Assembly: GCA_946699065.1 (NCBI GenBank)
Contig: CAMPDV010002112.1
Span: 1 to 64,000, forward strand
Origin: Loxodes magnus
Taxonomy: Eukaryota; Ciliophora; Karyorelictea; Loxodida; Loxodidae
Length of the DNA: 64,000 nt
Reading direction: 5' to 3'
Position 1 is the first letter of the stretch. Each line of letters starts with the position of its first letter. Below are positions 14,458 to 64,000 of the stretch, in pieces. The position numbers were made by a program, and so were the translations under genes. The notes under the pieces are model-generated. The model saw only the letters and a list, made by a program, of their open reading frames with translations. It ran no database searches and had not been told where the DNA came from.

Positions 14458-14529
14458 GCTCCTGGTGAGGGTCGAACTCACGATCTCTGGCTCATAAGAC
14501 CAGCGCTTTAACCACTAAGCTACAAGAGC
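14458..14529 (-). tRNA. tRNA-Ile (anticodon UAU)
   Basis: The minus strand folds as a 72-nt cloverleaf: acceptor GCTCTTG/CAGGAGC (one G-T pair), D-arm GCTT...AAGC with GTGGTTA in the loop, anticodon stem CTGGT/GCCAG with loop CTTATGA, and T-arm GTGAG-TTCGACC-CTCAC. The loop puts TAT at positions 34-36, the decoder of the rare Ile codon ATA, which is common in AT-rich genes. G rather than A at position 37 is unusual for this isoacceptor. The 3' side is followed (leftwards on the plus strand) by an A-run, that is a T-run terminator on the minus strand. Confidence 0.85.
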
Positions 14530-14869
14530 TGTTAATTTATCAAATTAAATAGAAACTTAAATTAACTTCATGATTTTACTCAAAAAACTACTTTAAATAT
14601 GCTTATAAAATTGAATTTAGATTAGATTATATAATTAAGGGACTTTAATTAAAAGTTACTTATAGCAATAGAATAATTTAACTAAATAGATAATAATTTT
14701 ATGAGTATGAGTATTAAAAATGTAAGCATTAGATTATTAAGTTGCATAATTATTTCTATAATTTGAAGGATTAAAATTAACTTTATAATATTTGGCTTTA
14801 TTAAGAGATAGAAATTTTTTACTTCTAGTAGTTATTAAGTATAATAAATAAGACTTTACGAGAAGCTTT
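14530..14869. other. AT-rich spacer, nothing recognised
   Basis: Between the tRNA-Ile gene and the first receptor-like sequence. No supported feature. Confidence 0.5.
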
Positions 14870-16905
14870 GTATGAGGATTTATTTCTCCACCTAATCTGT
14901 AGGCAATGATAAGCCGCCATTAGTTCTTCAATTCAACAAAGATATTGCGAAAGATTGACTCCATCATTCCTTATTGAAACTTCATCTTTCTGAAAAATTT
15001 AAATAGGTATTAATACTAATGAAAAAATCCAAAGGGAGCAATTAGTAAAATAATAACTTGGATTTATGCTCCTTGTACCATTCCTCTTCGGTGCCATATT
15101 TAATTATATAATCTGAATGATATATAGAAAAAAAGCAGATAATTTTTTGTATTCAACTCTAGTTTGCTTAAAGCAATTGAAATTAGTTATGAAACAGGAT
15201 TAGGAGGAGAAATAATTTAAGAAAGTGTTTCTACTTAACTAATAAACCATTTAAAATAAGTTCCTTGTGGAGTTCAATATGCGAATGAGCAAATAAATGT
15301 ACTGGAAAATTATTAAATAATAGCAAATCCTTTTAGTTATGGTAGTACGTTTCTTAACACAACTTTAATTTCATCGGTTCTCATGCAAAAGAAAGCTGAA
15401 ATATGAATCATTCACATCATTTCATAAGCCAAATATTTTATCTATGCTACTTATCTAGTTAATAACCAATATCTTGCTATAATCTTCCCTTTCTTCAGTT
15501 ACTATCAATTAATTAGAAAAAACTTTAAGATCTCCACTCTTTTTAGCCAATGCCTAGGATTAGTATTATAGAACTATTGTAGTAACCTAAATCATTTAGA
15601 GGAAAATGAAAACAAATAGAACTTTATTATGAAGATAGTGAGCAAAAGAATGAAAAATAATACAATATAACAAAAGCCTGATTTGACAAAAATGGAGTAA
15701 AATTAGTGAATCAAATTAATTTTTTCCAACTTGTCAACACAACTATTAAAAGTAGAAAAGAAATGGCAAAGAAACTCGCTAGATATTTTATGGAAAATGA
15801 GATTCGAGTTGTAATTTATAAATGAGGACATCTTTATCGATTGTGAGATAGTAATTGATCTATCTTAGTTTTAGGCCTGGTGATGTAATTTTTATTCATA
15901 TGATTCAAACTTCCCTCATTTTTGCTAAAATTTAAAATGTTGATAATTTAGAGGATATAATTATACTCTGCATGGCTCTTAATCTATAACTATTCCAAGA
16001 TGAATTGGAGAATTAGGGCGAGAAATGCTTGACTACGATAAAAAATGTACACCTCAGGTTGATTAAGAATACTATTTATTTGAGTAACCTCTTATAGTTG
16101 CCTATGGAATAAAAGAAATTCTTAGCTTAGGCGATGATTTCAATAATCCATTTACTTTGATGAAAGCTATAAGAAATGTATAGTTCATAAGTTGCACTGG
16201 CAAAGTAAAGTTTAAAAAAAAGCTAAATTATAGAGATTTAAATAACTTTTAAATTGACTCTACTTTAAGTAGAAATCTAACTTAACCTTAAATTATCTCT
16301 GGAGAAGAGTTTTGCCGTGATTGATCTATAATCTGAAAAAAAATGGTTATGGATTCAATTGAAATGAAAAACAACACATAAACATTTAGATAGTTTCTAG
16401 TAATATCAAATCTTTCCTTTTTTAAAGAGGATAGTGCTTTAACACTAGAAAGGAAAAAAAATTTTTATCTCGTATATATTTATTTTTGAAGCATAGTGTT
16501 CTTTTCTACCTTTAAAGAAATGAGAAGATGAAGTAAAAGAAATATGAATAATCAAAGTAGTATCAGAAGCCACTATTAGGGATGAGTAATTCACTTTCTT
16601 TTCGCCTTTGAATATTTAGCAATTTTATGCCTTAGGACATGACATAAATCTCTTTTAAGGAGAATAAGTCTAAATCGAAAAGGATTTTTGATTTATGATT
16701 TCGATCAAATTAAAAAAAATGAAATGGTTATCGAATTATTTTGATTATTTCATTTAGATTTTTATATATTGAAGATTTTTTTTGATTCCTTTCCTATGTG
16801 GCTTGAGGTCATATGAAAAATAAATATACTTTGTTAAGTGGGAAAATCTATATTAAAGAATTCCTTTAATAGGAACCATACTTTTCGTTTATATAAAAAA
16901 ATAAA
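14870..16905 (+). pseudogene. Decayed receptor with ANF-receptor (type-1 periplasmic-binding) domain and membrane segments
   Basis: Several family landmarks appear in the expected order but in different frames. Frame 0 near 15546 has DQYYRTIVV. Frame 1 at 15628-15800 has LYYEDSE, then FDKNGVKLVN and a Val-Val-Ile-Tyr strand. Frame 0 at 15870 has FRPGDVIFI. Frame 2 at 15990-16230 has IPRWIGELGREML, DQEYYLFEQPLIVAYGIKEI, a Asp-Phe-Asn-Asn-Pro and a SCTGKVKF. Frame 0 again has QFYALGHDI near 16620 and IPLIGTILFVYI near 16875. These match the C-terminal lobe of the ligand-binding domain and the following membrane region of large ciliate receptor families. Frame steps go in both directions, so indel decay is more likely than introns alone. 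The gene stops abruptly inside the last membrane segment, where the 105-bp satellite begins. A near-identical inverted copy lies at the window end. Confidence 0.68.
15927..16905 (+). repeat. Left flank of the giant inverted repeat
   Basis: This segment is the reverse complement of 63023-64000 with only scattered differences, for example one base in an A-run near 16450, one A in the TTAACACT/TTTAAACACT pair near 16440, one T/A near 16775 and one near 16160. The true left limit may extend further, since the right copy is cut by the window edge. Confidence 0.93.
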
Positions 16906-19900
16906 AGAATTTAAAGAGAAGCGATAAAAAGTAGGAAGTGAGTTTTAATATGATTTTTGGAAAAAAAGATTTAAAGACGAAAAATGTTAAGAAAGTGATG
17001 ATAGATAAAAAGGGAATTTAAAGAGAAGCGATAAAAATGTAGGAAGTGAGTTTTAATATGATTTTTGGAAAAAAAGATTTAAAGACGAAAAATGTTAAGA
17101 AAGTGATGATAGAGAAAAAGGGAATTTAAAGAGAAGCGATAAAAAGTAGGAAGTGAGTTTTAATATGATTTTTGGAAAAAAAGATTTAAAGACGAAAAAT
17201 GTTAAGAAAGTGATGATAGAAAAAGGGAATTTAAAGAGAAGCGATAAAAAGTAGGAAGTGAGTTTTAATATGATTTTTGGAAAAAAAGATTTAAAGACGA
17301 AAAATGTTAAGAAAGTGATGATAGAAAAAGGGAATTTAAAGAGAAGCGATAAAAAGTAGGAAGTGAGTTTTAATATGATTTTTGGAAAAAAAGATTTAAA
17401 GACGAAAAATGTTAAGAAAGTGATGATAGAAAAAGGGAATTTAAAGAGAAGCGAAAAAAAGTAGGAAGTGAGTTTTAATATGATTTTTGGAAAAAAAGAT
17501 TTAAAGACGAAAAATGTTAAGAAAGTGATGATAGATAAAAAGGGAATTTAAAGAGAAGCGATAAAAAGTAGGAAGTGAGTTTTAATATGATTTTTGGAAA
17601 AAAAGATTTAAAGACGAAAAATGTTAAGAAAGTGATGATAGAAAAAGGGAATTTAAAGAGAAGCGATAAAAAGTAGGAAGTGAGTTTTAATATGATTTTT
17701 GGAAAAAAAGATTTAAAGACGAAAAATGTTAAGAAAGTGATGATAGAAAAAGGGAATTTAAAGAGAAGCGATAAAAAGTAGGAAGTGAGTTTTAATATGA
17801 TTTTTGGAAAAAAAGATTTAAAGACGAAAAATGTTAAGAAAGTGATGATAGAAAAAGGGAATTTAAAGAGAAGCGATAAAAAGTAGGAAGTGAGTTTTAA
17901 TATGATTTTTGGAAAAAAAGATTTAAAGACGAAAAATGTTAAGAAAGTGATGATAGAAAAAGGGAATTTAAAGAGAAGCGATAAAAAGTAGGAAGTGAGT
18001 TTTAATATGATTTTTGGAAAAAAAGATTTAAAGACGAAAAATGTTAAGAAAGTGATGATAGATAAAAAGGGAATTTAAAGAGAAGCGATAAAAAGTAGGA
18101 AGTGAGTTTTAATATGATTTTTGGAAAAAAAGATTTAAAGACGAAAAATGTTAAGAAATGATTTTTGAGAAAAAGGGAATTTAAAGAGAAGCGATAAAAA
18201 GTAGGAAGTGAGTTTTAATATGATTTTTGGAAAAAAAGATTTAAAGACGAAAAATGTTAAGAAAGTGATGATAGATAAAAAGGGAATTTAAAGAGAAGCG
18301 ATAAAAAGTAGGAAGTGAGTTTTAATATGATTTTTGGAAAAAAAGATTTAAAGACGAAAAATGTTAAGAAAGTGATGATAGAAAAAGGGAATTTAAAGAG
18401 AAGCGATAAAAAGTAGGAAGTGAGTTTTAATATGATTTTTGGAAAAAAAGATTTAAAGACGAAAAATGTTAAGAAAGTGATGATAGATAAAAAGGGAATT
18501 TAAAGAGAAGCGATAAAAAGTAGGAAGTGAGTTTTAATATGATTTTTGGAAAAAAAGATTTAAAGACGAAAAATGTTAAGAAAGTGATGATAGAAAAAGG
18601 GAATTTAAAGAGAAGCGATAAAAAGTAGGAAGTGAGTTTTAATATGATTTTTGGAAAAAAAGATTTAAAGACGAAAAATGTTAAGAAAGTGATGATAGAA
18701 AAAGGGAATTTAAAGAGAAGCGATAAAAAGTAGGAAGTGAGTTTTAATATGATTTTTGGAAAAAAAGATTTAAAGACGAAAAATGTTAAGAAAGTGATGA
18801 TAGAAAAAGGGAATTTAAAGAGAAGCGATAAAAAGTAGGAAGTGAGTTTTAATATGATTTTTGGAAAAAAAGATTTAAAGACGAAAAATGTTAAGAAAGT
18901 GATGATAGAAAAAGGGAATTTAAAGAGAAGCGATAAAAAGTAGGAAGTGAGTTTTAATATGATTTTTGGAAAAAAAGATTTAAAGACGAAAAATGTTAAG
19001 AAAGTGATGATAGAAAAAGGGAATTTAAAGAGAAGCGATAAAAAGTAGGAAGTGAGTTTTAATATGATTTTTGGAAAAAAAGATTTAAAGACGAAAAATG
19101 TTAAGAAAGTGATGATAGAAAAAGGGAATTTAAAGAGAAGCGATAAAAAGTAGGAAGTGAGTTTTAATATGATTTTTGGAAAAAAAGATTTAAAGACGAA
19201 AAATGTTAAGAAAGTGATGATAGATAAAAAGGGAATTTAAAGAGAAGCGATAAAAAGTAGGAAGTGAGTTTTAATATGATTTTTGGAAAAAAAGATTTAA
19301 AGACGAAAAATGTTAAGAAATGATTTTTGAGAAAAAGGGAATTTAAAGAGAAGCGATAAAAAGTAGGAAGTGAGTTTTAATATGATTTTTGGAAAAAAAG
19401 ATTTAAAGACGAAAAATGTTAAGAAATGATTTTTGAGAAAAAGGGAATTTAAAGAGAAGCGATAAAAAGTAGGAAGTGAGTTTTAATATGATTTTTGGAA
19501 AAAAAGATTTAAAGACGAAAAATGTTAAGAAAGTGATGATAGATAAAAAGGGAATTTAAAGAGAAGCGATAAAAAGTAGGAAGTGAGTTTTAATATGATT
19601 TTTGGAAAAAAAGATTTAAAGACGAAAAATGTTAAGAAAGTGATGATAGAAAAAGGGAATTTAAAGAGAAGCGATAAAAAGTAGGAAGTGAGTTTTAATA
19701 TGATTTTTGGAAAAAAAGATTTAAAGACGAAAAATGTTAAGAAATGATTTTTGAGAAAAAGGGAATTTAAAGAGAAGCGATAAAAAGTAGGAAGTGAGTT
19801 TTAATATGATTTTTGGAAAAAAAGATTTAAAGACGAAAAATGTTAAGAAATGATTTTTGAGAAAAAGGGAATTTAAAGAGAAGCGATAAAAAGTAGGAAG

Positions 19901-22900
19901 TGAGTTTTAATATGATTTTTGGAAAAAAAGATTTAAAGACGAAAAATGTTAAGAAAGTGATGATAGATAAAAAGGGAATTTAAAGAGAAGCGATAAAAAG
20001 TAGGAAGTGAGTTTTAATATGATTTTTGGAAAAAAAGATTTAAAGACGAAAAATGTTAAGAAAGTGATGATAGAAAAAGGGAATTTAAAGAGAAGCGATA
20101 AAAAGTAGGAAGTGAGTTTTAATATGATTTTTGGAAAAAAAGATTTAAAGACGAAAAATGTTAAGAAAGTGATGATAGAAAAAGGGAATTTAAAGAGAAG
20201 CGATAAAAAGTAGGAAGTGAGTTTTAATATGATTTTTGGAAAAAAAGATTTAAAGACGAAAAATGTTAAGAAAGTGATGATAGAAAAAGGGAATTTAAAG
20301 AGAAGCGATAAAAATGTAGGAAGTGAGTTTTAATATGATTTTTGGAAAAAAAGATTTAAAGACGAAAAATGTTAAGAAAGTGATGATAGAAAAAGGGAAT
20401 TTAAAGAGAAGCGATAAAAAGTAGGAAGTGAGTTTTAATATGATTTTTGGAAAAAAAGATTTAAAGACGAAAAATGTTAAGAAAGTGATGATAGAAAAAG
20501 GGAATTTAAAGAGAAGCGATAAAAAGTAGGAAGTGAGTTTTAATATGATTTTTGGAAAAAAAGATTTAAAGACGAAAAATGTTAAGAAAGTGATGATAGA
20601 TAAAAAGGGAATTTAAAGAGAAGCGATAAAAAGTAGGAAGTGAGTTTTAATATGATTTTTGGAAAAAAAGATTTAAAGACGAAAAATGTTAAGAAAGTGA
20701 TGATAGAAAAAGGGAATTTAAAGAGAAGCGATAAAAAGTAGGAAGTGAGTTTTAATATGATTTTTGGAAAAAAAGATTTAAAGACGAAAAATGTTAAGAA
20801 AGTGATGATAGAAAAAGGGAATTTAAAGAGAAGCGATAAAAAGTAGGAAGTGAGTTTTAATATGATTTTTGGAAAAAAAGATTTAAAGACGAAAAATGTT
20901 AAGAAAGTGATGATAGAAAAAGGGAATTTAAAGAGAAGCGATAAAAAGTAGGAAGTGAGTTTTAATATGATTTTTGGAAAAAAAGATTTAAAGACGAAAA
21001 ATGTTAAGAAAGTGATGATGAGAGAAAAAGGGAATTTAAAGAGAAGCGATAAAAAGTAGGAAGTGAGTTTTAATATGATTTTTGGAAAAAAAGATTTAAA
21101 GACGAAAAATGTTAAGAAAGTGATGATAGAAAAAGGGAATTTAAAGAGAAGCGATAAAAAGTAGGAAGTGAGTTTTAATATGATTTTTGGAAAAAAAGAT
21201 TTAAAGACGAAAAATGTTAAGAAATGATTTTTAAAGAGAGAAAAAGTGAATTTAAAGAGAAGCGATAAAAAGTAGGAAGTGAGTTTTAATATGATTTTTG
21301 GAAAAAAAGATTTAAAGACGAAAAATGTTAAGAAAGTGATGATAGATAAAAAGGGAATTTAAAGAGAAGCGATAAAAAGTAGGAAGTGAGTTTTAATATG
21401 ATTTTTGGAAAAAAAGATTTAAAGACGAAAAATGTTAAGAAAGTGATGATAGAAAAAGGGAATTTAAAGAGAAGCGATAAAAAGTAGGAAGTGAGTTTTA
21501 ATATGATTTTTGGAAAAAAAGATTTAAAGACGAAAAATGTTAAGAAAGTGATGATAGAAAAAGGGAATTTAAAGAGAAGCGATAAAAAGTAGGAAGTGAG
21601 TTTTAATATGATTTTTGGAAAAAAAGATTTAAAGACGAAAAATGTTAAGAAAGTGATGATAGAAAAAGGGAATTTAAAGAGAAGCGATAAAAAGTAGGAA
21701 GTGAGTTTTAATATGATTTTTGGAAAAAAAGATTTAAAGACGAAAAATGTTAAGAAAGTGATGATAGAAAAAGGGAATTTAAAGAGAAGCGATAAAAAGT
21801 AGGAAGTGAGTTTTAATATGATTTTTGGAAAAAAAGATTTAAAGACGAAAAATGTTAAGAAAGTGATGATAGAAAAAGGGAATTTAAAGAGAAGCGATAA
21901 AAAGTAGGAAGTGAGTTTTAATATGATTTTTGGAAAAAAAGATTTAAAGACGAAAAATGTTAAGAAAGTGATGATAGAAAAAGGGAATTTAAAGAGAAGC
22001 GATAAAAAGTAGGAAGTGAGTTTTAATATGATTTTTGGAAAAAAAGATTTAAAGACGAAAAATGTTAAGAAAGTGATGATAGAAAAAGGGAATTTAAAGA
22101 GAAGCGATAAAAAGTAGGAAGTGAGTTTTAATATGATTTTTGGAAAAAAAGATTTAAAGACGAAAAATGTTAAGAAAGTGATGATAGAAAAAGGGAATTT
22201 AAAGAGAAGCGATAAAAAGTAGGAAGTGAGTTTTAATATGATTTTTGGAAAAAAAGATTTAAAGACGAAAAATGTTAAGAAAGTGATGATAGAAAAAGGG
22301 AATTTAAAGAGAAGCGATAAAAAGTAGGAAGTGAGTTTTAATATGATTTTTGGAAAAAAAGATTTAAAGACGAAAAATGTTAAGAAAGTGATGATAGAAA
22401 AAGGGAATTTAAAGAGAAGCGATAAAAAGTAGGAAGTGAGTTTTAATATGATTTTTGGAAAAAAAGATTTAAAGACGAAAAATGTTAAGAAAGTGATGAT
22501 AGAAAAAGGGAATTTAAAGAGAAGCGATAAAAAGTAGGAAGTGAGTTTTAATATGATTTTTGGAAAAAAAGATTTAAAGACGAAAAATGTTAAGAAAGTG
22601 ATGATAGAAAAAGGGAATTTAAAGAGAAGCGATAAAAAGTAGGAAGTGAGTTTTAATATGATTTTTGGAAAAAAAGATTTAAAGACGAAAAATGTTAAGA
22701 AAGTGATGATAGAAAAAGGGAATTTAAAGAGAAGCGATAAAAAGTAGGAAGTGAGTTTTAATATGATTTTTGGAAAAAAAGATTTAAAGACGAAAAATGT
22801 TAAGAAAGTGATGATAGAAAAAGGGAATTTAAAGAGAAGCGATAAAAAGTAGGAAGTGAGTTTTAATATGATTTTTGGAAAAAAAGATTTAAAGACGAAA

Positions 22901-25900
22901 AATGTTAAGAAAGTGATGATAGAAAAAGGGAATTTAAAGAGAAGCGATAAAAAGTAGGAAGTGAGTTTTAATATGATTTTTGGAAAAAAAGATTTAAAGA
23001 CGAAAAATGTTAAGAAAGTGATGATAGAAAAAGGGAATTTAAAGAGAAGCGATAAAAAGTAGGAAGTGAGTTTTAATATGATTTTTGGAAAAAAAGATTT
23101 AAAGACGAAAAATGTTAAGAAAGTGATGATAGAAAAAGGGAATTTAAAGAGAAGCGATAAAAAGTAGGAAGTGAGTTTTAATATGATTTTTGGAAAAAAA
23201 GATTTAAAGACGAAAAATGTTAAGAAAGTGATGATAGAAAAAGGGAATTTAAAGAGAAGCGATAAAAAGTAGGAAGTGAGTTTTAATATGATTTTTGGAA
23301 AAAAAGATTTAAAGACGAAAAATGTTAAGAAAGTGATGATAGAGAAAAAGGGAATTTAAAGAGAAGCGATAAAAAGTAGGAAGTGAGTTTTAATATGATT
23401 TTTGGAAAAAAAGATTTAAAGACGAAAAATGTTAAGAAAGTGATGATAGAAAAAGGGAATTTAAAGAGAAGCGATAAAAAGTAGGAAGTGAGTTTTAATA
23501 TGATTTTTGGAAAAAAAGATTTAAAGACGAAAAATGTTAAGAAAGTGATGATAGAAAAAGGGAATTTAAAGAGAAGCGATAAAAAGTAGGAAGTGAGTTT
23601 TAATATGATTTTTGGAAAAAAAGATTTAAAGACGAAAAATGTTAAGAAAGTGATGATAGAAAAAGGGAATTTAAAGAGAAGCGATAAAAAGTAGGAAGTG
23701 AGTTTTAATATGATTTTTGGAAAAAAAGATTTAAAGACGAAAAATGTTAAGAAAGTGATGATAGAAAAAGGGAATTTAAAGAGAAGCGATAAAAAGTAGG
23801 AAGTGAGTTTTAATATGATTTTTGGAAAAAAAGATTTAAAGACGAAAAATGTTAAGAAAGTGATGATAGAAAAAGGGAATTTAAAGAGAAGCGATAAAAA
23901 GTAGGAAGTGAGTTTTAATATGATTTTTGGAAAAAAAGATTTAAAGACGAAAAATGTTAAGAAAGTGATGATAGAGAAAAAGGGAATTTAAAGAGAAGCG
24001 ATAAAAAGTAGGAAGTGAGTTTTAATATGATTTTTGGAAAAAAAGATTTAAAGACGAAAAATGTTAAGAAAGTGATGATAGAGAAAAAGGGAATTTAAAG
24101 GGAAGCGATAAAAAGTAGGAAGTGAGTTTTAATAAGATTTAAAGACGAAAAATGTTAAGAAAGTGATGATAGAAAAAGGGAATTTAAAGAGAAGCGATAA
24201 AAAGTAGGAAGTGAGTTTTAATATGATTTTTGGAAAAAAAGATTTAAAGACGAAAAATGTTAAGAAAGTGATGATAGAAAAAGGGAATTTAAAGAGAAGC
24301 GATAAAAAGTAGGAAGTGAGTTTTAATATGATTTTTGGAAAAAAAGATTTAAAAGACGAAAAATGTTAAGAAAGTGATGATGAGAAAAAGGGAATTTAAA
24401 GAGAAGCGATAAAAAGTAGGAAGTGAGTTTTAATATGATTTTTGGAAAAAAAGATTTAAAGACGAAAAATGTTAAGAAAGTGATGATAGAAAAAGGGAAT
24501 TTAAAGAGAAGCGATAAAAAGTAGGAAGTGAGTTTTAATATGATTTTTGGAAAAAAAGATTTAAAGACGAAAAATGTTAAGAAAGTGATGATAGAAAAAG
24601 GGAATTTAAAGAGAAGCGATAAAAAGTAGGAAGTGAGTTTTAATATGATTTTTGGAAAAAAAGATTTAAAGACGAAAAATGTTAAGAAAGTGATGATAGA
24701 AAAAGGGAATTTAAAGAGAAGCGATAAAAAGTAGGAAGTGAGTTTTAATATGATTTTTGGAAAAAAAGATTTAAAGACGAAAAATGTTAAGAAAGTGATG
24801 ATAGAAAAAGGGAATTTAAAGAGAAGCGATAAAAAGTAGGAAGTGAGTTTTAATATGATTTTTGGAAAAAAAGATTTAAAGACGAAAAATGTTAAGAAAG
24901 TGATGATAGAAAAAGGGAATTTAAAGAGAAGCGATAAAAAGTAGGAAGTGAGTTTTAATATGATTTTTGTAAAAAAAGATTTAAAGACGAAAAATGTTAA
25001 GAAAGTGATGATAGAAAAAGGGAATTTAAAGAGAAGCGATAAAAAGTAGGAAGTGAGTTTTAATATGATTTTTGGAAAAAAAGATTTAAAGACGAAAAAT
25101 GTTAAGAAAGTGATGATAGAGAAAAAGGGAATTTAAAGAGAAGCGATAAAAAGTAGGAAGTGAGTTTTAATATGATTTTTGTATAAAAAGATTTAAAGAC
25201 GAAAAATGTTAAGAAAGTGATGATAGAAAAAGGGAATTTAAAGAGAAGCGATAAAAAGTAGGAAGTGAGTTTTAATATGATTTTTGGAAAAAAAGATTTA
25301 AAGACGAAAAATGTTAAGAAAGTGATGATAGAGAAAAAGGGAATTTAAAGAGAAGCGATAAAAAGTAGGAAGTGAGTTTTAATATGATTTTTGGAAAAAA
25401 AGATTTAAAGACGAAAAATGTTAAGAAAGTGATGATAGAAAAAGGGAATTTAAAGAGAAGCGATAAAAAGTAGGAAGTGAGTTTTAATATGATTTTTGGA
25501 AAAAAAGATTTAAAGACGAAAAATGTTAAGAAAGTGATGATAGAAAAAGGGAATTTAAAGAGAAGCGATAAAAAGTAGGAAGTGAGTTTTAATATGATTT
25601 TTGGAAAAAAAGATTTAAAGACGAAAAATGTTAAGAAAGTGATGATAGAAAAAGGGAATTTAAAGAGAAGCGATAAAAAGTAGGAAGTGAGTTTTAATAT
25701 GATTTTTGGAAAAAAAGATTTAAAGACGAAAAATGTTAAGAAAGTGATGATAGAAAAAGGGAATTTAAAGAGAAGCGATAAAAAGTAGGAAGTGAGTTTT
25801 AATATGATTTTTGGAAAAAAAGATTTAAAGACGAAAAATGTTAAGAAAGTGATGATAGAAAAAGGGAATTTAAAGAGAAGCGATAAAAAGTAGGAAGTGA

Positions 25901-28900
25901 GTTTTAATATGATTTTTGGAAAAAAAGATTTAAAGACGAAAAATGTTAAGAAAGTGATGATAGAGAAAAAGGGAATTTAAAGAGAAGCGATAAAAAGTAG
26001 GAAGTGAGTTTTAATATGATTTTTGGAAAAAAAGATTTAAAGACGAAAAATGTTAAGAAAGTGATGATAGAAAAAGGGAATTTAAAGAGAAGCGATAAAA
26101 AAGTAGTGGAAGTGAGTTTTAATATGAGTTTTTTTGGAAAAAAAGATTTAAAGACGAAAAATGTTAAGAAAGTGATGATAGAGAAAAAGGGAATTTAAAG
26201 AGAAGCGATAAAAAGTAGGAAGTGAGTTTTAATATGATTTTTGGAAAAAAAGATTTAAAGACGAAAAATGTTAAGAAAGTGATGATAGAGAAAAAGGGAA
26301 TTTAAAGAGAAGCGATAAAAAGTAGGAAGTGAGTTTTAATATGATTTTTGGAAAAAAAGATTTAAAGACGAAAAATGTTAAGAAAGTGATGATAGAGAAA
26401 AAGGGAATTTAAAGAGAAGCGATAAAAAAGTAGGAAGTGAGTTTTAATATGATTTTTGGAAAAAAAGATTTAAAGACGAAAAATGTTAAGAAAGTGATGA
26501 TAGAGAAAAAGGGAATTTAAAGAGAAGCGATAAAAAGTAGGAAGTGAGTTTTAATATGATTTTTGGAAAAATGTTAAAAAAAGATTTAAAGACGAAAAAT
26601 GTTAAGAAAGTGATGATAGAGAAAAAGGGAATTTAAAGAGAAGCGATAAAAAGTAGGAAGTGAGTTTTAATATGATTTTTGGAAAAAAAGATTTAAAGAC
26701 GAAAAATGTTAAGAAAGTGATGATAGAGAAAAAGGGAATTTAAAGAGAAGCGATAAAAAGTAGGAAGTGAGTTTTAATATGATTTTTGGAAAAAAAGATT
26801 TAAAGACGAAAAATGTTAAGAAAGTGATGATAGAAAAAGGGAATTTAAAGAGAAGCGATAAAAAGTAGGAAGTGAGTTTTAATATGATTTTTGGAAAAAA
26901 AGATTTAAAGACGAAAAATGTTAAGAAAGTGATGATAGAGAAAAAGGGAATTTAAAGAGAAGCGATAAAAAGTAGGAAGTGAGTTTTAATATGATTTTTT
27001 AAGAAAGTGATGAAAAAAGATTTAAAGAAAGCGATAAAAAAAAAGTGTTTTAATATGATTTTTGGAAAAAAAGATTTAAAGACGAAAAATGTTAAGAAAG
27101 TGATGATAGAGAAAAAGGGAATTTAAAGAGAAGCGATAAAAAAGTAGGAAGTGAGTTTTAATATGATTTTTGTAAAAAAAGATTTAAAGACGAAAAATGT
27201 TAAGAAAGTGATGATAGAGAAAAAAGGGAATTTAAAGAGAAGCGATAAAAAAGTAGGAAGTGAGTTTTAATATGATTTTTGTAAAAAAAGATTTAAAGAC
27301 AAAAATGTTAAGAAAGTGATGATAGAGAAAAAGGGAATTTAAAGAGAAGCGATAAAAAGTAGGAAGTGAGTTTTAATATGATTTTTGGAAAAAAAGATTT
27401 AAAGACGAAAAATGTTAAGAAAGTGATGATAGAAAAAAAGGGAATTTAAAGATAAGTGAAAAAGTAGGAAGTGAGTTTTAATATGATTTTTGGAAAAAAA
27501 GATTTAAAGACGAAAAATGTTAAGAAAGTGATGATAGATAAAGGGAATTTAAAGAGAAGCGAAAAAAAGTAGGAAGTGAGTTTTAATATGATTTTTGGAA
27601 AAAAAGATTTAAAGACGAAAAATGTTAAGAAAGTGATGATAGAAAAAGGGAATTTAAAGAGAAGCGATAAAAAGTAGGAAGTGAGTTTTAATATGATTTT
27701 TGTTTTAATATGATTTTTGTAAAAAAGATTTAAAGACGAAAAATGTTAAGAAAGTGATGATAGAGAAAAAGGGAATTTAAAGAGAAGCGATAAAAAGTAG
27801 GAAGTGAGTTTTAATATGATTTTTGGAAAAAAAGATTTAAAGACGAAAAATGTTAAGAAAGTGATGATAGAAAAAGGGAATTTAAAGAGAAGCGATAAAA
27901 AGTAGGAAGTGAGTTTTAATATGATTTTTGGAAAAAAAGATTTAAAGACGAAAAATGTTAAGAAAGTGATGATAAGAAAGTGAGAAAAAGGGAATTTAAA
28001 GAGAAGCGATAAAAAGTAGGAAGTGAGTTTTAATATGATTTTTGGAAAAAAAGATTTAAAGCGAAAAAGTGTTAAGAAAGTGATGATAGAGAAAAAGGGA
28101 ATTTAAAGATAAGCGATAAAAAGTAGGAAGTGAGTTTTAATATGATTTTTGGAAAAAAAGATTTAAAGCGAAAAATGTTAAGAAAGTGATGATAGAGAAA
28201 AAGGGAATTTAAAGAGAAGCGATAAAAAAGTAGGAAGTGAGTTTTAATATGATTTTTGGAAAAAAAGATTTAAAGACGAAAAATGTTAAGAAAGTGATGA
28301 TAGAAAAAGGGAATTTAAAGAGAAGCGATAAAAAGTAGGAAGTGAGTTTTAATATGATTTTTGGAAAAAAAGATTTAAAGACGAAAAATGTTAAGAAAGT
28401 GATGATAGATAAAAAGGGAATTTAAAGAGAAGCGATAAAAAGTAGGAAGTGAGTTTTAATATGATTTTTGGAAAAAAAGATTTAAAGACGAAAAATGTTA
28501 AGAAAGTGATGATAGAAAAAGGGAATTTAAAGAGAAGCGATAAAAAGTAGGAAGTGAGTTTTAATATGATTTTTGGAAAAAAAGATTTAAAGACGAAAAA
28601 TGTTAAGAAAGTGATGATAGAAAATTGGAATTTAAAGAGAAGCGATAAAAAAGAAGGAAGTGAGTTTTAATATGATTTTTGTAAAAAAAGATTTAAAGAC
28701 GAAAAATGTTAAGAAAGTGATGATAGAGAAAAAAGGGAATTTAAAGAGAAGCGATAAAAAAGTAGGAAGTGAGTTTTAATATGATTTTTGTAAAAAAAGA
28801 TTTAAAGACGAAAAATGTTAAGAAAGTGATGATAGAGAAAAAGGGAATTTAAAGAGAAGCGATAAAAAGTAGGAAGTGAGTTTTAATATGATTTTTGTAT

Positions 28901-29998
28901 AAAAAGATTTAAAGAGAAAAATGTTAAGAAAGTGATGATAGAAAAAGGGAATTTAAAGAGAAGCGATAAAAAGTAGGAAGTGAGTTTTAATATGATTTTT
29001 GGAAAAAAAAATTTAAAGACGAAAAATGTTAAGAAAGTGATGATAGAGAAAAAGGGAATTTAAAGATAAGCGAAAAAAAGTAGGAAGTGAGTTTTAATAT
29101 GATTTTTGGAAAAAAAGATTTAAAGACGAAAAATGTTAAGAAAGTGATGATAGAGAAAAAGGGAATTTAAAGATAAGCGAAAAAAAGTAGGAAGTGAGTT
29201 TTAATATGATTTTTGGAAAAAAAGATTTAAAGACGAAAAATGTTAAGAAAGTGATGATAGATAAAGGGAATTTAAAGAGAAGCGAAAAAAAGTAGGAAGT
29301 GAGTTTTAATATGATTTTTGGAAAAAAAGATTTAAAGACGAAAAATGTTAAGAAAGTGATGATAGAGAAAAAGGGAATTTAAAGATAAGCGAAAAAAAGT
29401 AGGAAGTGAGTTTTAATATGATTTTTGGAAAAAAAGATTTAAAGAGAAAAATGTTAAGAAAGTGATGATAGAGAAAAAGGGAATTTAAAGATAAGCGAAA
29501 AAAAGTAGGAAGTGAGTTTTAATATGATTTTTGGAAAAAAAGATTTAAAGACGAAAAATGTTAAGAAAGTGATGATAGAGAAAAAGGGAATTTAAAGAGA
29601 AGCGATAAAAAATAGGAAGTGAGTTTTAATATGATTTTTGTATAAAAAGATTTAAAGACGAAAAATGTTAAGAAAGTGATGATAGAGAAAAAGGGAATTT
29701 AAAGATAAGCGAAAAAAAGTAGGAAGTGAGTTTTAATATGATTTTTGTAAAAAAAGATTTAAAGACGAAAAATGTTAAGAAAGTGATGATGGATAAAGGG
29801 AATTTAAAGAGAAGCGAAAAAAAGTAGGAAGTGAGTTTTAATATGATTTTTGGAAAAAAAGATTTAAAGACGAAAAATGTTAAGTAAGTTATTATAGAAA
29901 GAGAAAAAAGGAATTTAAAAAGAAGTGAAAAAAAACAAAAATGTGAGTTTTAATATTTTGTAAAAAAAAGATGTGAATATGAAAAATGTTAAGAATGG
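16906..29998 (+). repeat. 105-bp satellite array, left arm (about 120 units)
   Basis: Head-to-tail copies of a 105-bp unit built from TTAAAGAGAAGCGATAAAAA, GTAGGAAGTGAGTTTTAATA, TGATTTTTGGAAAAAAAGAT, TTAAAGACGAAAAATGTTAA and GAAAGTGATGATAGAAAAAG. Main variants are 107-bp units (GATAGAGAAAAAG or GATAGATAAAAAG) and a form with AAGAAATGATTTTTGAG replacing AAGAAAGTGATGATAGA (near 18160, 19320, 19427, 19743, 19853, 21226). The plus strand is almost all purine plus T-runs. Copies are near perfect from about 17 to 24 kb and become irregular from about 26 to 30 kb, with a broken unit near 27000 and strongly diverged final copies. 105 is a multiple of three; one plus frame reads as a 35-residue basic repeat containing NMIFGKKDLKTKNVKK, but no frame is kept across the length variants, so I do not call it a gene. 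Confidence 0.98.
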
Positions 29999-30994
29999 TA
30001 TTTTTAAACTTTTTTTGATCATGAGTTAAAAATAATATTTAAAATTAAAAACAATTTATTTGATAGCAAAATATAATTAAGAGAATAATTCAAAATGGGC
30101 AATCAAAATTTTTAAATTTTTTTTTTTAAATAAAGATAATTTAAAAAAATTTTAAAAATACGCTAAAAATAAGTTTCATGGACTGCAAAAAAATTTGAAT
30201 GTTGCAAATTTGGCTTAAATACTTGAAAGAAAATTTTTTTGTTTTTTAAAAGTACCTTTAGAAGTAATTTAACTTGCGTAGGGAAAAACAATAAAATTAT
30301 TGTAAATAAACATTTTTTACTGAAAATGTATTTAAAGAATAAACTATATCTAAATTAGATTTATTCTTATATTTAAAAAAGTAAATTGGTAAAAATAATT
30401 ATAAATTAAAAAAAATAAATTTATAAAAAAAGAAATCTGATTTTCAAATAATAAAGAAAAAATTCACTAAAGGTAATAAAAATTTTTATAAAGAACAAAA
30501 CAATAATTTGCACTAAAAAAAAATTATTTTCGGGAAGTTAAAAAATTGAAAATAATAAAATTTTTTTTTAATGAATAAGTTCATATAAGTCTTACTATAT
30601 TTGAGTAAATCCTGAAAACAAAAAATTTTCTCAATAAACAGAAGCATTCATAAGATAAAATAAAATCAAAAAAATTTAAAATCTTTAAATATGTAGTTTA
30701 AAAAAACATTTAAAAAAGCTTAAAAAGTCATAAAAATAGTCTTGAATCTCACAAAAAAAATTTAAAGGAAAAAAATAAAAATATAATAAATAAAAAGTAA
30801 AAAAAATCATTCAAATACAATAGATACACAAAATATAGATCGGAATACATAAAAAGAAAAATAAATAAAAAATAATATATTAAAAAAGAAAGAATAAAAA
30901 TTTCATTAGTATAAAGATTTATAAATAAATTGTTTCTTTATTATAGTGTATTTTTCTCTTTTAATGTTTTTTTTCTATATTATCAAAGTATTTT
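29999..30994. other. AT-rich spacer between left array and channel gene
   Basis: Mostly A-rich sequence without repeats of the satellite or recognisable genes. It contains whatever promoter drives the channel gene, but no element can be named. Confidence 0.5.
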
Positions 30995-33900
30995 ATGAAC
31001 TATTAAAGTAAATCCACTGAATTTACAAAATAATAAAAAACATCATTACGAAAGTTAAAAATAGAATAGGCTTACGAGATTTTAAAAAATGAAAAAGATA
31101 AAAATAATGTGTTAGATCTTATAAAAATAATTACACTTAAAGGACATAATAATTATGTTATAAATGTAAGCTTCAGTCCAGATGGAAATACAATCGCTAG
31201 TTCTTCAGGTGATAAAACTATCAAACTATGAAACCTTAAAACACAATAAGAAATCATTACACTTAAAGGAAAAGAAGAATTTATCTCAAGTGTTACTTTT
31301 AGTCCAGATGGAAATATACTCGCTAGCTCTTCAGGTGATAAAACTATCAAACTATGAAACGTTCATACACAATAAGAAATTATAACTCTTTACGGACATT
31401 CAAGTAGTGTTTCAAGCGTTACTTTTAGTCCAGATGGAAATACACTCGCTAGTTCTTCAAATGATAAAACTATCAAACTATGAAACCTCAAAACACAATA
31501 AGAAATCATTACACTTAGAGGACATACAAGCTATGTTTCAAGCGTAACTTTCAGTCCAGATGGAAATACACTCGCTAGTTCTTCAGATGATAATACTATC
31601 AAACTATGAAACCTCAAAACACAATAAGAAATCATTACACTTAGAGGACATACAAGCTATGTTTCAAGCGTAACTTTCAGTCTAGATGGAAATACACTCG
31701 CTAGCTCTTCACATGATAAAACTATCAAAATATGAAACCTTAAAACACAATAAGAAATCATTACACTTAGAGGACATACAGACTATGTTTCAAACGTTAC
31801 TTTTAGTCCAGATGGAAATACACTCGCTAGTTCTTCAGGTGATAAAACTATCAAACTATGAAACCTTAAAACACAATAAGAAATCATTACACTTAGAGAT
31901 CATACAGAATCTGTTTTAAACGTAAGCTTCAGTCCAGATGGAAATACACTCGCTAGCTCTTCATATGATAATACTATCAAACTATGAAACCTTCAAACAC
32001 AATAAGAAATCATTACAATTAGAGGACATACAGAATCAGTTTCAAGCGTTACTTTTAGTCCAGATGGAAATACACTCGCTAGTTCTTCAAATGATAAAAC
32101 TATCAAACTATGAAACCTTCAAACACAATAAGAAATCATTACACTTAGAGGACATACAAGCTATGTTTCAAGCGTAACTTTCAGTCCAGATGGAAATACA
32201 CTCGCTAGTTCTTCTTATGATAAAACTATCAAACTATGAAACCTTAAAACACAATAAGAAATCATTACACTAAGAGATCATACAGACTATGTTTCAAACG
32301 TTACTTTTAGTCGAGATGGAAATACACTCGCTAGTTCTTCAGGTGATAATAGTATCAAACTATGAAACCTTCAAACACAATAAGAAATCATTACACTTAG
32401 AGGACATACAAGCTATGTTTCAAGCGTAACTTTTAGTCCAGATGGAAATACACTCGCTAGTTCTTCAAATGATAAAACTATCAAACTATGAAACCTTCAA
32501 ACACAACAAGAAATCATTACACTTAGAGGACACGAAAAATCTGTTTCAAGCGTAATTTTCAGTCCAGATGGAAATACACTCGCTAGTTCTTCAGATGATA
32601 AAACTATCAAACTATGAAACCTGCAAACACAATAAGAAATAATTACACTTAGAGATCATACAGAATCTGTTTTAAACGTAACTTTTAGTCCAGATGGAAA
32701 TATACTCGCTAGCTCGTCAAGTGATGATACTATCAAACTATGAAACCTTAAAACACAATAAGAAATCATTACACTTAGAGGACATACAAGCTATGTTTTA
32801 AACGTAACTTTTAGTCGAGATGGAAATACAATCGCTAGTTCTTCAGGTGATAAAACTATCAAAATATGAAACCTTAAAACACAATAAGAAATCATTACAC
32901 TTAAAGGACACGAAAAATCTGTTTCAAGCGTTACTTTTAGTCCAGATGGAAATACACTCGCTAGTTCTTCAAATGATAAAACTATCAAACTATGAAACCT
33001 TCAAACAAAATAAGAAATCATTACACTTAGAGGACATACAGACTATGTTTCAAACGTTACTTTTAGTCGAGATGGAAATACACTCGCTAGTTCTTCAGGT
33101 GATAATAGTATCAAACTATGAAACCTTCAAACACAATAAGAAATCATTACACTTAGAGGACACGAAAAATCAGTTTCAAGCGTTACTTTTAGTCCAGATG
33201 GAAATACACTCGCTAGTTCTTCAAATGATAAAACTATCAAACTATGAAACCTCAAAACACAATAAGAAATCATTACACTTAGAGGACATACAAGCTATGT
33301 TTTAAACGTTACTTTTAGTCCAGATGGAAATACACTCGCTAGTTCTTCTTATGATAATACTATCAAACTATGAAACCTTCAAACACAATAAGAAATCATT
33401 ACACTTAAAGGACATACAAACTATGTTTTAAACGTAAGCTTCAGTCCAGATGGAAATACACTCGCTAGTTCTTCAGGTGATAATAGTATCAAACTATGAA
33501 ACCTTCAAACACAATAAGAAATCATTACACTTAGAGGACACGAAAAATCTGTTTCAAGCGTTACTTTTAGTCCAGATGGAAATACACTCGCTAGCTCGTC
33601 CAGTGATGATACTATCAAACTATGAAACCTTAAAACACAATAAGAAATAATTACACTTAGAGAACATACAGAATCTGTTTTAAACGTAAGTTTCAGTCCA
33701 GATGGAAATACACTCGCTAGTTCTTCAAATGATAAAACTATCAAGCTATGAAACCTATAACCTTTATTTTCTTCTTTTTATCTTCAATTTGTTAGTGCTC
33801 CGATTTTTACTAAAAGGCTTTAATTTTTGTTTGGTCTTTTTTATTTACCTTTATAGAAAGATAAATTGATGAACTTATTAAATACTTGATATAATTTGTT

Positions 33901-36109
33901 TACTAATTCCTTTTAGATGATATCTTCATGAAATTGCTAATTTACTTAATTTTCATTTACTCCTCTTCATTTCTGTTCTTTTTTGGGAAAAACTGAGATT
34001 TTAAAGTCGGCTTTTAAGAACTACTAAATTTAGTTACGTACTGATTTATTTGGCCATTCACCCCTTTTTTACTCTATTTTTTACTAACATTAAAGCACAA
34101 CTGATTTACTCTTGGATTATATATCTTAACTTGAATATTGTGAGTTTTTAGTTTAAAGAGCTTCATTTTAATCTTTATAACTTGATTTTACTGGAATTAT
34201 TCGTAATTCTTCTTCTTTTTTGGATAATTTACTTAGCAATCTACTTTATTTCGACTAAAATCTTCGCGAACATCTTTATGTTGAGTAAGATTAACGTATT
34301 AAATTCGCTGACTTTTCTGTTTAAAGTTTTAAATTATTTTAGTAATAACTACCTTGTGAAAACTAACAATAAACTACTTAATAAAAAGATTTATCTCTCG
34401 ATAAAAATTCGTAATTAGACAACTAATCTAAGGAGCATCTTAAAATATCTACATCTTGATTCAAACTACCTTCTGTAGTTGGATCTGATTAAAGCATTGA
34501 ATTATTGAATTCATTCTTAGACTCAAAAGATAAAGATTTATACAAACATAAAATAATAAGAAGTTATATTAACTTAAAGTGAAATCACTTATGATATATA
34601 ATCTTGGCTATTTCTTGTTTGATATGACTTAATCTATTTCTTATTGTGGTTTTGATGATTAAACCTTTTTGCTTTTTTTATCTTGCCTTGATTTTATTGG
34701 TGCTAATAAATGGTTGCTTGCTTGCTTGGGAATTGCTTTAAATTAGAATAACAAGATTAGATTATTTTAAGGATGCTTGGAATATAGTTGATATTACTAG
34801 AATCATTTTTATAGTTCCTTGGATATTCTTTAGTGCTTTTGATATCTAAATAGAAACATTTAACTGAATTTTTCTACTATTGAACGTATTACGTGGAATT
34901 ACGGCCTTTAGATCATTTGACGAAACAAGATATTACATTAAGCTGATTTTAGATTCCTTTTACAATATAAGATACTTCCTTACTATAATGGTTTACACCA
35001 CACTGGCATTTGGCCTTCTATATATTACAGCAAAGGGTGAAGAAGTCTCATTTAAAAGCTTATGAATTTCATCTTTCGATTTGATAGCAGGGGATTCAGG
35101 AGTATTTGATAGGGAAGGATTGGATATAATATATACCACATTCCTCTTAGCTGTTATTTTAAATGTAGTGATAATGCTTAATATGATCATCTCTATTCTA
35201 GGAGATTCCTTTGATGAGTTTTAAATTTAGCAAGTCTATTATGACTATAGAGAAAAGACTTAAGTTCTTCTTGAGATAGAACAGATTCTTTCCTTATGAA
35301 ATCCAGAAAATAGGGAGTAATATCTTCATATTTGTGATAATTATTATCAAGAAGAAGGTTTTGGATGGGAAGGAAAAGTTGCAGACGTAAGAGAGTGCAT
35401 CAAAAAGACTGAAGACAAAATAAACGAAAAAATTGATTAAAACACTAAGAAATTAGATACTCTTGAAGGGAAAATTACTAAGATTGATTCTCTTGAAGCA
35501 AAAAATAATACACTCAATTCTCTTGAGAAAACAGCCAAAGAAATAGAGATTCTTAAGACTTAAACAAATTCTATGGAGAGAAAGATGAATTCTATGGATG
35601 GAAAGATGAATTCTATGGATGAAAAGATGAATTCTATGGATGGAAAGATGAATTCTATGGATGGAAAGATGAATTCTATCGAGGAGAAAATGAATGAAAT
35701 AGAGATTCTTAAGACTTAAACAAATTCTATGGATGGAAAGTTGAATTCTATGGATGGAAAGATGAATTCTATCGAGGAGAAAATGAATGAAATAGAGATT
35801 CTTAAGACTTAAACAAATTCTATGGAGAGAAAGATGAATTCTATGGATGGAAAGATGAATTCTATGGATGGAAAGATGAATTCTATCGAGGAGAAAATGA
35901 ATGAAATAGAGATTCTTAAGACTTAAACAAATTCTATGGATGGAAAGTTGAATTCTATGGATGGAATGATGAGGTCTATTGAGGAGAAAATGAAAGAAGT
36001 CGAACTTTTTAAATTTCAAACTGGCTCTATCGATAAAAAGATGGACTAGCTTGAAGAAAAACTGGACTCTCTTATTGGGCTGCTAAGTGCAAAGTCCTTA
36101 ATAAAATGA
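30995..36109 (+). CDS. WD40-repeat / TRP-like cation channel, 1704 residues
   Basis: One uninterrupted frame (TAA/TAG = Gln, TGA = Trp) from ATG at 30995 to TGA at 36107-36109. Residues 48-920 hold 21 WD40 repeats, each exactly 42 codons, with GHxxxVxxVxFSPDGN and DxTIKLWN motifs. A linker with an ankyrin-like piece ([11 protein letters not shown], then DLLLDYI) fills about 920-1190. Residues about 1200-1400 form an ion-transport domain: hydrophobic segments from [12 protein letters not shown], then [24 protein letters not shown], a pore-like [11 protein letters not shown], and the last segment [19 protein letters not shown], which closely resembles the end of S6 in TRP/polycystin-type channels. 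A coiled-coil tail with perfect NSMDGKM heptads runs to about 1690. WD40-channel fusions are known in ciliates. The likely role is a membrane cation channel tetramerised by the tail and regulated through the propeller domains. The start was chosen as the first ATG after A-rich noncoding DNA and could lie elsewhere. Ligand and ion selectivity cannot be read. Confidence 0.9.
31142..33760 (+). repeat. 21 WD40 units of exactly 126 bp
   Basis: The GAT of each SPDG motif falls at 31181 and every 126 bp thereafter up to 33701, without a single length change. Units are very similar at the DNA level, including synonymous sites. 21 blades would make about three seven-bladed propellers. Confidence 0.96.
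35570..36000 (+). repeat. 21-bp heptad repeat encoding a coiled coil
   Basis: Units such as AATTCTATGGATGGAAAGATG encode seven residues (NSMDGKM), nested in a larger unit that also holds EIEILKTQT. Two to five heptads occur per larger unit. Met and hydrophobic residues fall at the a/d positions. Confidence 0.9.
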
Positions 36110-38799
36110 CTCTAGAATTAAAATTAAAATTCTTACTTAATGTTTCGAAAATAATGTTTTGCATTAAATTCTCTTAATTTACAAACCTTTTTAAAGCATA
36201 TAAATAACTTAAAAGATTAATAAAATATAACTATATTAAACAATTGATGTTTTTCTAAAAAATACTTGATATAAATTACTTTAAGTCTGTATATATTTTT
36301 GCAAGTTGATTAATATATTTTATTTAAAAGATATTGCTATAGTTAATAATCTAAATCTTGTAAAAACAAAAAAATTAAAAAAGCTTAACAATTTTAGTAA
36401 GTATTACTATAAAGCATAACAGTGATTTAGTATTTTAAGAAGCTTAATATAAAGAATCTAAATTAATTGTTACTCACAACATTCTAGTAAAAACTTATAA
36501 GAATGTAATTGTTGATTTGAATGGATTAAAATTTTAAGACATGGAAGTTAAACGTTAAATATATCTTGAAGCTTAATTAATTAATTTAAAAAAATAATTA
36601 AAAATTTAGTTCATCTGATACAAAAATTAAGCTTTGTAATCTTACTAAGCCATATGAAACCTCATTCTAAAAGAAAGTAAAAGATTTACTTAATTTTAAA
36701 TTGAAATGAATAAAAAAGCATTTATCTGTTTTATCCGTTTTGCTTTTAGCTCTAATGATCTTTATTTGATATTTATTTCTCATGTGAAACTATTATAAAA
36801 TGTTTATAAAAATTCTAAAGCATAATTCCCTCAGTACACTTATTACTTTCTTGTTTACCTTCAACACAGAGAAAAGTAAACAAACAAACTTAATAATCTT
36901 AGAAGATTAAAAGATTAAAAGGAAAAATAACTTGATATATAATAAATTTGCACTTTGAAAACTTTAGTTTCAATATTTGATGCTAATTATAGTTATTTGA
37001 TATAATTGAAATCTTATTAAGTTTACTAAGTAGCTATCAATTATTTGCTTTTGTCAAAATAATTTAGTCCTTCAATTTAAAAAACTTACTTAATGGTAAG
37101 TTTTATTTTTAGCGAGAAATTAGCAAATATTTGATGGCTTGAAGATTCTAAGTGTACAATTAACTGTAATAGAGTTAATTTTTATTGATATTTAAATGTC
37201 ATTTATATTAAATTTAATAATTTGTATATCATTATTCCAAAAAGAGAACTTCAATAATATAAAAATTTTCCCTTAATAAAGAAAAAAATGAATATGTTAG
37301 CAATATCATAAAATAGTTTTCGAAAGAAACTTTAAGCATCAATACACTTTGATAAATTATCTAAGAAATGATAGTCGAATTAAAATTGATGAACAATCAA
37401 TTCATTTAATAGTTTAAGTAAATATAATAACATTTAATAATTACCAAATATTTCAAATACTTAAGGATATTAATATTATATATTATCAATATAAATAAAG
37501 CTTAAAGGATTTCAAAATATCAAATTACAATTATTTCCAAAATATTCCCAACATATTTAACATTATTCAAGATAATAATAAACTATCCTAATCAGTTTGA
37601 AGTAACTACTCCTTATCTATCATATTGCATCATTCATTACCAAGTCAAAATCCTTATTCAAATCTATCCAATTTTTAGATATTCCTTCTTCATATGTGTA
37701 ATAGCTTGTATTTCGAGCAATTTATGAATATAAATTCTTTTTAGTTTTGCCTAGAAATTTGAAGATGAATAAAACTTTTTCTTAAAATTAAATTAAAATA
37801 AAACTTTTAAAATAGAAATAATAATACTATTAAAATATTAGTTAATTTAACTAAATCAGCTAATTTATTTCAAGTAAACTAGAACTTAAAAGCTTTATCA
37901 ATTAGATAGAATCTCATATTTTGCTACTTTCTTGACTATTTTAGTGTCAATCATGTTAAAAATCACAAAGATTATTTAGAAATTATAGTTATTATTTAAA
38001 CCAATACAGAACTAAAGGTTATTACATAAAAAAATATTATTCAGCAATTGTAGAATTCAATCAGATCATTACAGTAAATATTTTATTTTACAAGACCTAA
38101 AGAAAATTAATTTCTGTGAAAATCTGCTTTGCTTAAACAAACTTTAAATTAAATACATTATTCTTGAAATTAACATTTTATATATTTTTTTTATGAACGT
38201 TGAGTCAAAAATAAAATAGCAGGTTGTGATAACACAGCTATTTAGATTTGAGAACTTGGGTAATAAATTCCATTGAAGTCTTTTCTCTCACGAATCAATA
38301 ACTTGTTAAAAGAAAAAACAAATAAAACAAAACTATCTTTTCATATGTCAATCTGTGTAAAAGAAAATCATTCAATTCAACTTCATTTTGGATTGACATT
38401 ACTAGGATTCACTTCAAATATAAAATAAATATTAGATTTTACTAAATAATTTTCTTTGTAAATTTAATTTTAATCATTCTTTCCAAGCTTAAATGACATT
38501 TCTTTAATTCTTCTTTCTAAAATTCTTGATAAAATTTTCTCAAATTTGTGAATTTAAAATCTTTCTCATTTTGATAATTTTACTATTGAAAATTAAATAT
38601 TTAGGCAAAAATACTAAGCAGTTTGAAATAAAAGTTTTAAATTGAAAAATTTATTAGATTGAGGTAATTATTTATCTTATCCATTATCTTCATATTTAAA
38701 AAAAATATATCTACAGAATATATTTAATTAATTTGAAAGGTTTAAGCATATCTTTATTGAAGTTAAGTTAAATAAAAAAAAAAAAAATCGAACTCAAAT
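36110..38799. other. AT-rich region with faint coding-like traces
   Basis: Mostly AT-rich DNA between the channel gene and the right satellite arm. Two spots read like decayed protein: plus strand frame 1 around 36478-36950 (for example AFICFIRFAFSSNDLYLIF, then FPQYTYYFLVYLQHREK), and minus strand around 37590-37780 and 38210-38400. None shows a named domain, and open frames are cheap under this code, so no gene is called. Confidence 0.4.
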
Positions 38800-63022: not shown

Positions 63023-64000
63023 CTTTTTATATAAACGAAAAGTATGGTTCCTATTAAAGGAATTCTTTAATATAGATTTTCCCACTTAACAAAGTATATT
63101 TATTTTTCATATGACCTCAAGCCACATAGGAAAGGAATCAAAATAAATCTTCAATATATAAAAATCTAAATGAAATAATCAAAATAATTCGATAACCATT
63201 TCATTTTTTTTAATTTGATCGAAATCATAAATCAAAAATCCTTTTCGATTTAGACTTATTCTCCTTAAAAGAGATTTATGTCATGTCCTAAGGCATAAAA
63301 TTGCTAAATATTCAAAGGCGAAAAGAAAGTGAATTACTCATCCCTAATAGTGGCTTCTGATACTACTTTGATTATTCATATTTCTTTTACTTCATCATCT
63401 TCATTTCTTTAAAGGTAGAAAAGAACACTATGCTTCAAAAATAAATATATACGAGATAAAAATTTTTTTTTCCTTTCTAGTGTTTAAAGCACTATCCTCT
63501 TTAAAAAAGGAAAGATTTGATATTACTAGAAACTATCTAAATGTTTATGTGTTGTTTTTTCATTTCAATTGAATCCATAACCATTTTTTTTCAGATTATA
63601 GATCAATCACGGCAAAACTCTTCTCCAGAGATAATTTAAGGTTAAGTTAGATTTCTACTTAAAGTAGAGTCAATTTAAAAGTTATTTAAATCTCTATAAT
63701 TTAGCTTTTTTTTAAACTTTACTTTGCCAGTGCAACTTATGAACTATACATTTCTTATAGCTTTCTTCAAAGTAAATGGATTATTGAAATCATCGCCTAA
63801 GCTAAGTATTTCTTTTATTCCATAGGCAACTATAAGAGGTTACTCAAATAAATAGTATTCTTAATCAACCTGAGGTGTACATTTTTTATCGTAGTCAAGC
63901 ATTTCTCGCCCTAATTCTCCAATTCATCTTGGAATAGTTATAGATTAAGAGCCATGCAGAGTATAATTATATCCTCTAAATTATCAACATTTTAAATTTT
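63023..64000 (-). pseudogene. Inverted second copy of the decayed receptor (cut by window end)
   Basis: Reverse complement of 15927-16905, differing at only a few bases. It carries the same ligand-binding and membrane-segment remnants (IPRWIGELGREML and SCTGKVKF on the minus strand) in the same shifted frames, and meets the satellite at the same point after the LFVYI segment. Base 64000 corresponds to 15927, so the duplication continues beyond the window. Sharing the same frame changes means the decay came before the duplication, or the two copies are kept alike by gene conversion. Confidence 0.85.

Follow-up and report, generated by a model that had tools for sequence, protein, structure and literature searches.

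A self-mirrored Loxodes magnus contig as the probable product of assembling one flank-and-satellite locus twice around a real gene

Contig C2112 (CAMPDV010002112.1) of the Loxodes magnus draft genome reads as its own mirror image around a single large gene. The question is whether this layout exists in the organism or was made by the assembler. The window analyzed comprises bases 1-64,000 of this contig, which has a total of 79,949 bases; the assembly searched consists of 705,730,643 bases in 7843 contigs. Flank, satellite array, loop, inverted array and inverted flank follow each other in this order and make up the whole contig. The giant inverted repeat noticed in the first-pass annotation is present in the letters: 15,927-29,995 aligns with 64,000-49,714 on the opposite strand at 95.6% identity, and the mirror extends beyond the window to base 79,949. 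The start attributed to it (15,927) is the mirror position of base 64,000, but it is not an element border and merely reflects the end of the window. As detailed below, the giant inverted repeat is most probably an assembly product: a locus consisting of a flank (X) and its array was entered twice, and reads were mis-threaded through the satellites.

The left flank X (1-16,906, forward strand) carries MORN-repeat coding stretches, two tRNA genes and parts of a multi-copy segment. Its mirrored copy occupies contig positions 63,025-79,949 on the reverse strand, just 63,025-64,000 being inside the window. Bases 1-16,898 align with 79,949-63,025 of the other strand at 99.74% identity. The flanks had been called nearly identical, which is correct, but the identity is uneven. 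The outer 12,331 bases (1-12,331) are letter-identical to the far contig end and may represent one read used twice, while 44 alignment columns differ in 12,332-16,890. A Pfam scan of the forward frames of 1-8402 returned MORN repeats only, and a scan of the reverse strand of 8001-16,850 returned zero matches. One tRNA gene of the left arm was located by ARAGORN at 14,456-14,530 (minus strand, anticodon tat). In the alignment, its mirrored copy lacks one G, likely a read error.

A third sequence, contig C97, is informative about the origin of the two arms. The first and the last base of C2112 both map to the same base, C97:806237. The left arm equals C97 exactly over 11,999-17,454 (5456 bases) and 17,456-20,606 (3151 bases). 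These two runs are one base apart, and the stretch (11,999-20,606) spans the border between flank and array at 16,907. The right arm departs there from the left arm and C97; in the outer part, C97 is the sequence that deviates. When the three versions of the 16.9-kb flank are aligned, the left arm is in no column the single deviating sequence. The deviating one is C97 in 147 columns of the outer 12 kb and the right arm in 53 inner columns, the last 8 of which are at the array border. The left arm thus swaps its identity partner from the right arm to C97, which is expected if the same reads were reused. Such a swap at one point would be unusual for independent copies but is what results when sequences are pieced together from a few shared reads, which argues for an assembly origin. 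The ends of the identical stretches have the appearance of read boundaries. These stretches, paired differently among both arms and C97, indicate the same locus assembled twice, which the first-pass annotation had named as the outcome that would speak against a real inversion.

The differences between the arms look like read errors. The 44 columns in 12,332-16,890 comprise 10 substitution and 34 indel columns (one extra gap column was put at 12,326 by the aligner). All six isolated substitutions are A<->T. In 30 of the 34 indel columns the base is absent from the left arm, and in 25 a like base adjoins. The comparison of C97 with the left arm over 1-11,998 gives a similar list: isolated substitutions are A<->T in 16 of 19 cases, and the base is absent from C97 in 108 of 118 indel columns.

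Other copies of X are less similar. The best long ones among the matches listed have an identity of about 94-95% as far as 14.2 kb (C201, C182, C306) and of 88-91% beyond (C201, C1097 and others); a single 0.5-kb piece in C97 reaches 97% among these matches. With other long copies at 88-95%, the two arms are not merely two ordinary members of that family. As a separate observation, flank bases 1-14,200 and the sequence outside them are part of a family of segmental duplications. Its copies, most of which are 93-98% identical, are found in C201, C182 and C306 near 150, 206 and 256 kb, respectively.

The contig ends offer a reason for the common end base. The approximately 790 bases just outside X (C97:805444-806236) occur in at least 32 places in at least 30 other contigs at 98-99% identity among the matches listed, and from its sequence this element looks like a young high-copy mobile element. 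Long X copies elsewhere begin to match at window base 50. Both ends of C2112 thus seem to coincide with the border of a high-copy element, a place at which assembly may break off. A full-length match to the 6.2 kb outside X was found in C97 only, among 40 scored of 11,719 candidates. No telomere-like repeat was seen by eye in the first 900 and the last 200 contig bases. A palindromic minichromosome, as known from the rDNA of Tetrahymena, was considered and dropped because no such repeat is seen at the ends and because C97 runs outward from the same base.

The two arrays are related but are not mirror copies. TRF reports the left array at 16,907-29,995 (forward strand, 13.1 kb) with a 105-bp unit in 123.8 copies; the monomers are purine-rich and 105-107 bp long. 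The right array, at 38,801-63,024 (24.2 kb), is inverted and has 227.9 copies; 35-bp sub-repeats are listed by TRF for this array only. GC skew flips from about +0.85 in the left to about -0.85 in the right array. What had been described as the same array on both sides does consist of a single satellite family, yet beside X the monomer variants follow a different order from the first monomer on, the left arm agreeing with C97 against the right arm. Likewise, the junctions said to coincide do so for the outer borders, which agree within a few bases, but the letters there differ. The distinct border letters and monomer order of the right arm imply that the assembled data contain the X/array border in two versions or more. 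The easy reading is that these are two haplotypes with different arrays, although a second real X may be the source instead. Five single-copy 41-mers, in three scattered places, are shared between the left and the right array. Arms that mirror each other up to the loop, as in a palindrome or a breakage-fusion-bridge product, are therefore not found, either in monomer order or in length. Fast array turnover after a duplication could also give unlike arrays.

Within the arrays, C97 follows the left arm for about 38 monomers, bar one or two, before the two diverge. In the right array, the variant composition jumps abruptly near 51,300, a possible mis-threading point. Given this split and this jump, the array lengths and the link between X and the gene are to be read as assembled only, on either side. 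Variant profiles and single-copy 41-mers favor neither side of the gene as the one to which X leads; the tail of C97 shares variants with both loop-side array ends. At the loop end of the left array the monomers are progressively decayed, so that the left border between gene and array looks like a natural array edge; the right border is less telling. Among the matches listed, no other contig spans the left array/loop border. The satellite occurs in at least 13 other contigs and has one orientation only in all 13 of these (among the matches listed). Satellite pieces of 2001 bases from C7201, C2420 and C2614 are mutually identical throughout, those of C4214 and C2362 are identical to each other, and C6475 is identical to the former three for 1793 bases. 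Such pieces could result from redundant assembly or from very recent real duplication.

The loop (29,996-38,800) contains an open frame at 30,995-36,109 on the forward strand (5.1 kb, 1704 codons plus stop). The frame is open if TAA and TAG are read as Gln and TGA as Trp, and the stop at 36,107 is our choice; the genetic code of the species is NCBI table 27 (PMC11441545). All 21 tryptophans of the WD40 blades (31,229-33,749) are encoded by TGA, and TGG is absent in frame from 30,998-33,800. The frame encodes 21 WD40 repeats (about 31,121-33,756), an ankyrin-like stretch (about 33,944-34,120), an Ion_trans-like region (about 34,619-35,230) and coiled-coil repeats (about 35,540-36,043). The attributed function as a channel agrees with the presence of Pfam matches to Ion_trans and ankyrin, but both are weak and below their curated cut-offs (for Ion_trans, PF00520, E=0.00076 and 19.2 bits versus a cut-off of 25). 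When the part after the WD40 repeats was compared to solved structures, the best 60 of 166 matches were ankyrin-repeat proteins by name, mostly designed ones, and none of these 60 was named as a channel. We take the membrane region to be TRP-like. A WD40-rich query gave 105 matches in the genome, several per copy and with the query itself included, so that the gene has many relatives. A single literature query for WD40, TRP channel and ankyrin in ciliates yielded nothing, which is no proof of absence.

The loop has a paralogue in C306 (84,872-93,442) and partial matches in C191, C2513, C1829, C359, C7796 and other contigs. At the right border, an array is present in three of seven other gene copies checked (C306, C191, C2513). 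No array was found within about 3 kb in the first C359 copy and C1829, or within about 2 kb in the second C359 copy and C7796; in these four, the loop match stops 0.4-0.6 kb before the loop end, and the border is less well placed. In C306, the right-hand array is of the same family as the C2112 arrays, with up to about 90% identity. It begins approximately 370 bases past the loop homology and has the same orientation; C306:1-3000 is also satellite. C191 and C2513 carry a different satellite of 119 and 128 bp, starting 1.3 and 1.7 kb past the match, respectively. At the left border, one of three other copies checked has an array: in C2513, an inverted 128-bp array extends from 27,009, separated from the loop match by about 1.7 kb. 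The left side is devoid of an array in C306 within 11.5 kb (to 105,000) and in C191 within 3 kb. With the C2112 copy included, the gene family has a long satellite on the right in four of eight copies and also on the left in two of the four examined on both sides. The possibility that the loop is a mobile unit inserted into one array was rejected, since the arrays are opposed and the left side of C306 continues as non-array sequence.

That a probable channel gene lies between two opposed arrays is borne out, and C2513 offers a parallel. In this contig the paralogue lies between opposed arrays as well, made of a different satellite (pieces 14,001-17,100 and 24,501-28,500 and both contig ends). 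The last 3 kb of C2513 are 128-bp satellite again, and the sampled contig ends are not mirror images of each other. Its first 3 kb are filled by a 387-bp satellite. None of 300 shuffles reached the score between the 119- and the 128-bp unit, which clearly belong to one family. For the 105-bp unit, the score was reached by 2 of 300 shuffles against the 119-bp unit and by 1 of 300 against the 128-bp unit, which is marginal. In favor of a relation, the 105-bp array has 50 weak matches (E up to 1e-3) in the left piece of C2513, and 60-64-base stretches match C2513 at 84%. We do not claim that they form one family with the 105-bp unit. The purine-rich strand points toward the gene at all six gene/array borders seen (two each in C2112 and C2513, one each in C306 and C191), these borders being non-independent. 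Judged from sequence, the opposed arrays next to the gene may exist in the organism, while the mirrored flanks probably do not. The central gene with satellites beside it is real sequence. Such a combination is unremarkable, given the 231 Mbp of tandem repeats in the draft; the opposed arrays are a mild open point.

How could one locus have been assembled twice? The Loxodes magnus MAC assembly (706 Mbp, of which 231 Mbp are low-complexity tandem repeats) was made with Falcon (min-idt 96) from CCS reads at about 20-30x and is unphased (PMC11441545). The genome is probably diploid, with an average heterozygosity of about 0.6%, and misassembled low-complexity repeats are given as the likely cause of the size difference between MIC and MAC (PMC11441545). 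In such a string-graph assembly, X with its long array would have been entered forwards at the left end of C2112 and reversed at its right end. The path between the entries would have been threaded via satellite reads that are alike at the 96% overlap setting. The real central gene probably has genuine opposed arrays on both sides, each of which would give the assembler a route back into X. The differing arrays beside X may stem from two haplotypes of a single locus. The first-pass annotation had proposed three origins; an assembly join of two haplotypes comes closest, while fold-back (breakage-fusion-bridge) amplification and a chromosome-structural or centromere-like element have no positive support here.

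Several observations speak against an assembly product. A very recent real palindrome would likewise have its arms collapsed onto shared reads and would stop at a single base. Flank identity alone also fits such a palindrome and does not strictly decide against identical arms. At the X/array border, the right arm has letters and a monomer order that the left arm does not share. Toward the gene, the left array ends in what looks like a natural edge, and opposed arrays around a paralogue can occur, as in C2513.

Among the alternatives, an inversion polymorphism is very unlikely. According to this explanation, X and its array adjoin the gene on its left in one haplotype and on its right in the other, and the contig joins both. 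Opposed repeats are a usual substrate for inversion and would allow the gene segment to flip, and the two versions of the X/array border fit as well. The probably diploid genome is also compatible (PMC11441545). However, an average heterozygosity of about 0.6% (PMC11441545) is hard to reconcile with zero transition-type isolated substitutions in the 4.6 kb where the arms differ. The flipped form alone was found in none of the contigs examined, and the array threading is unreliable.

A real, recent inverted duplication of the fold-back or breakage-fusion-bridge type is very unlikely. X and its array would then exist twice around the gene, the arms being alike through youth or gene conversion. 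The error-like nature of all arm differences is consistent with this, as are the opposed arrays in C2513 and the differing monomer order beside X, which fast-evolving arrays of two real copies would show. On the other hand, a 12,331-base identity followed by the swap to C97 resembles read boundaries rather than biology; the full-length match of the 6.2 kb outside X to C97 only, among the candidates scored, and the unlike arrays point the same way. That C2112 represents a real near-perfect mirror, with opposed arrays and identical outer flanks amounting to at least about 30 kb on either side of one WD40-channel gene, is, accordingly, a long shot. If it were true, satellites with their purine-rich strand pointing geneward from both sides, as in C2513, would constitute a recurrent, inversion-prone arrangement. 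The least credible explanation is that palindromic chimeras formed during whole-genome amplification or library preparation made the left or right join: palindromic long reads are described (PMC6218980) and nuclei were flow-sorted (PMC11441545), but the left border consists of decayed monomers with no abrupt join inside canonical units (the right one being less telling), and the passages on amplification listed from PMC11441545 do not mention DNA amplification before sequencing.

Assembly of one locus twice remains the preferred reading, and it can be compared with known systems. Artificial palindromes have been described in long reads after whole-genome amplification (PMC6218980). C2112 is similar in having inverted copies in one sequence; it differs in that its two arrays are not mirror copies and in that it is known here from an assembled contig only. 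As in the tandem repeats of the Loxodes magnus draft (PMC11441545), the arrays of C2112 are long and found in many contigs; the 105-bp unit and the layout of C2112 are not among what the passages of that source describe.

This case serves as a warning that a repeat-heavy, unphased draft can yield a self-mirrored contig, from which gene and repeat counts are doubled. It also provides a modest biological lead, a multi-copy family of WD40-ankyrin-channel-like genes that often adjoin long satellites. False duplications and fold-back contigs occur in long-read assemblies of satellite-rich genomes. C2112 resembles them in its letter-identical ends that stop on one base, in arms that meet through a repeat and in the unphased diploid data. 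Unlike such contigs, its arms enclose a unique loop of about 8.8 kb with at least one natural-looking array border, and part of the inverted layout may therefore be genuine.
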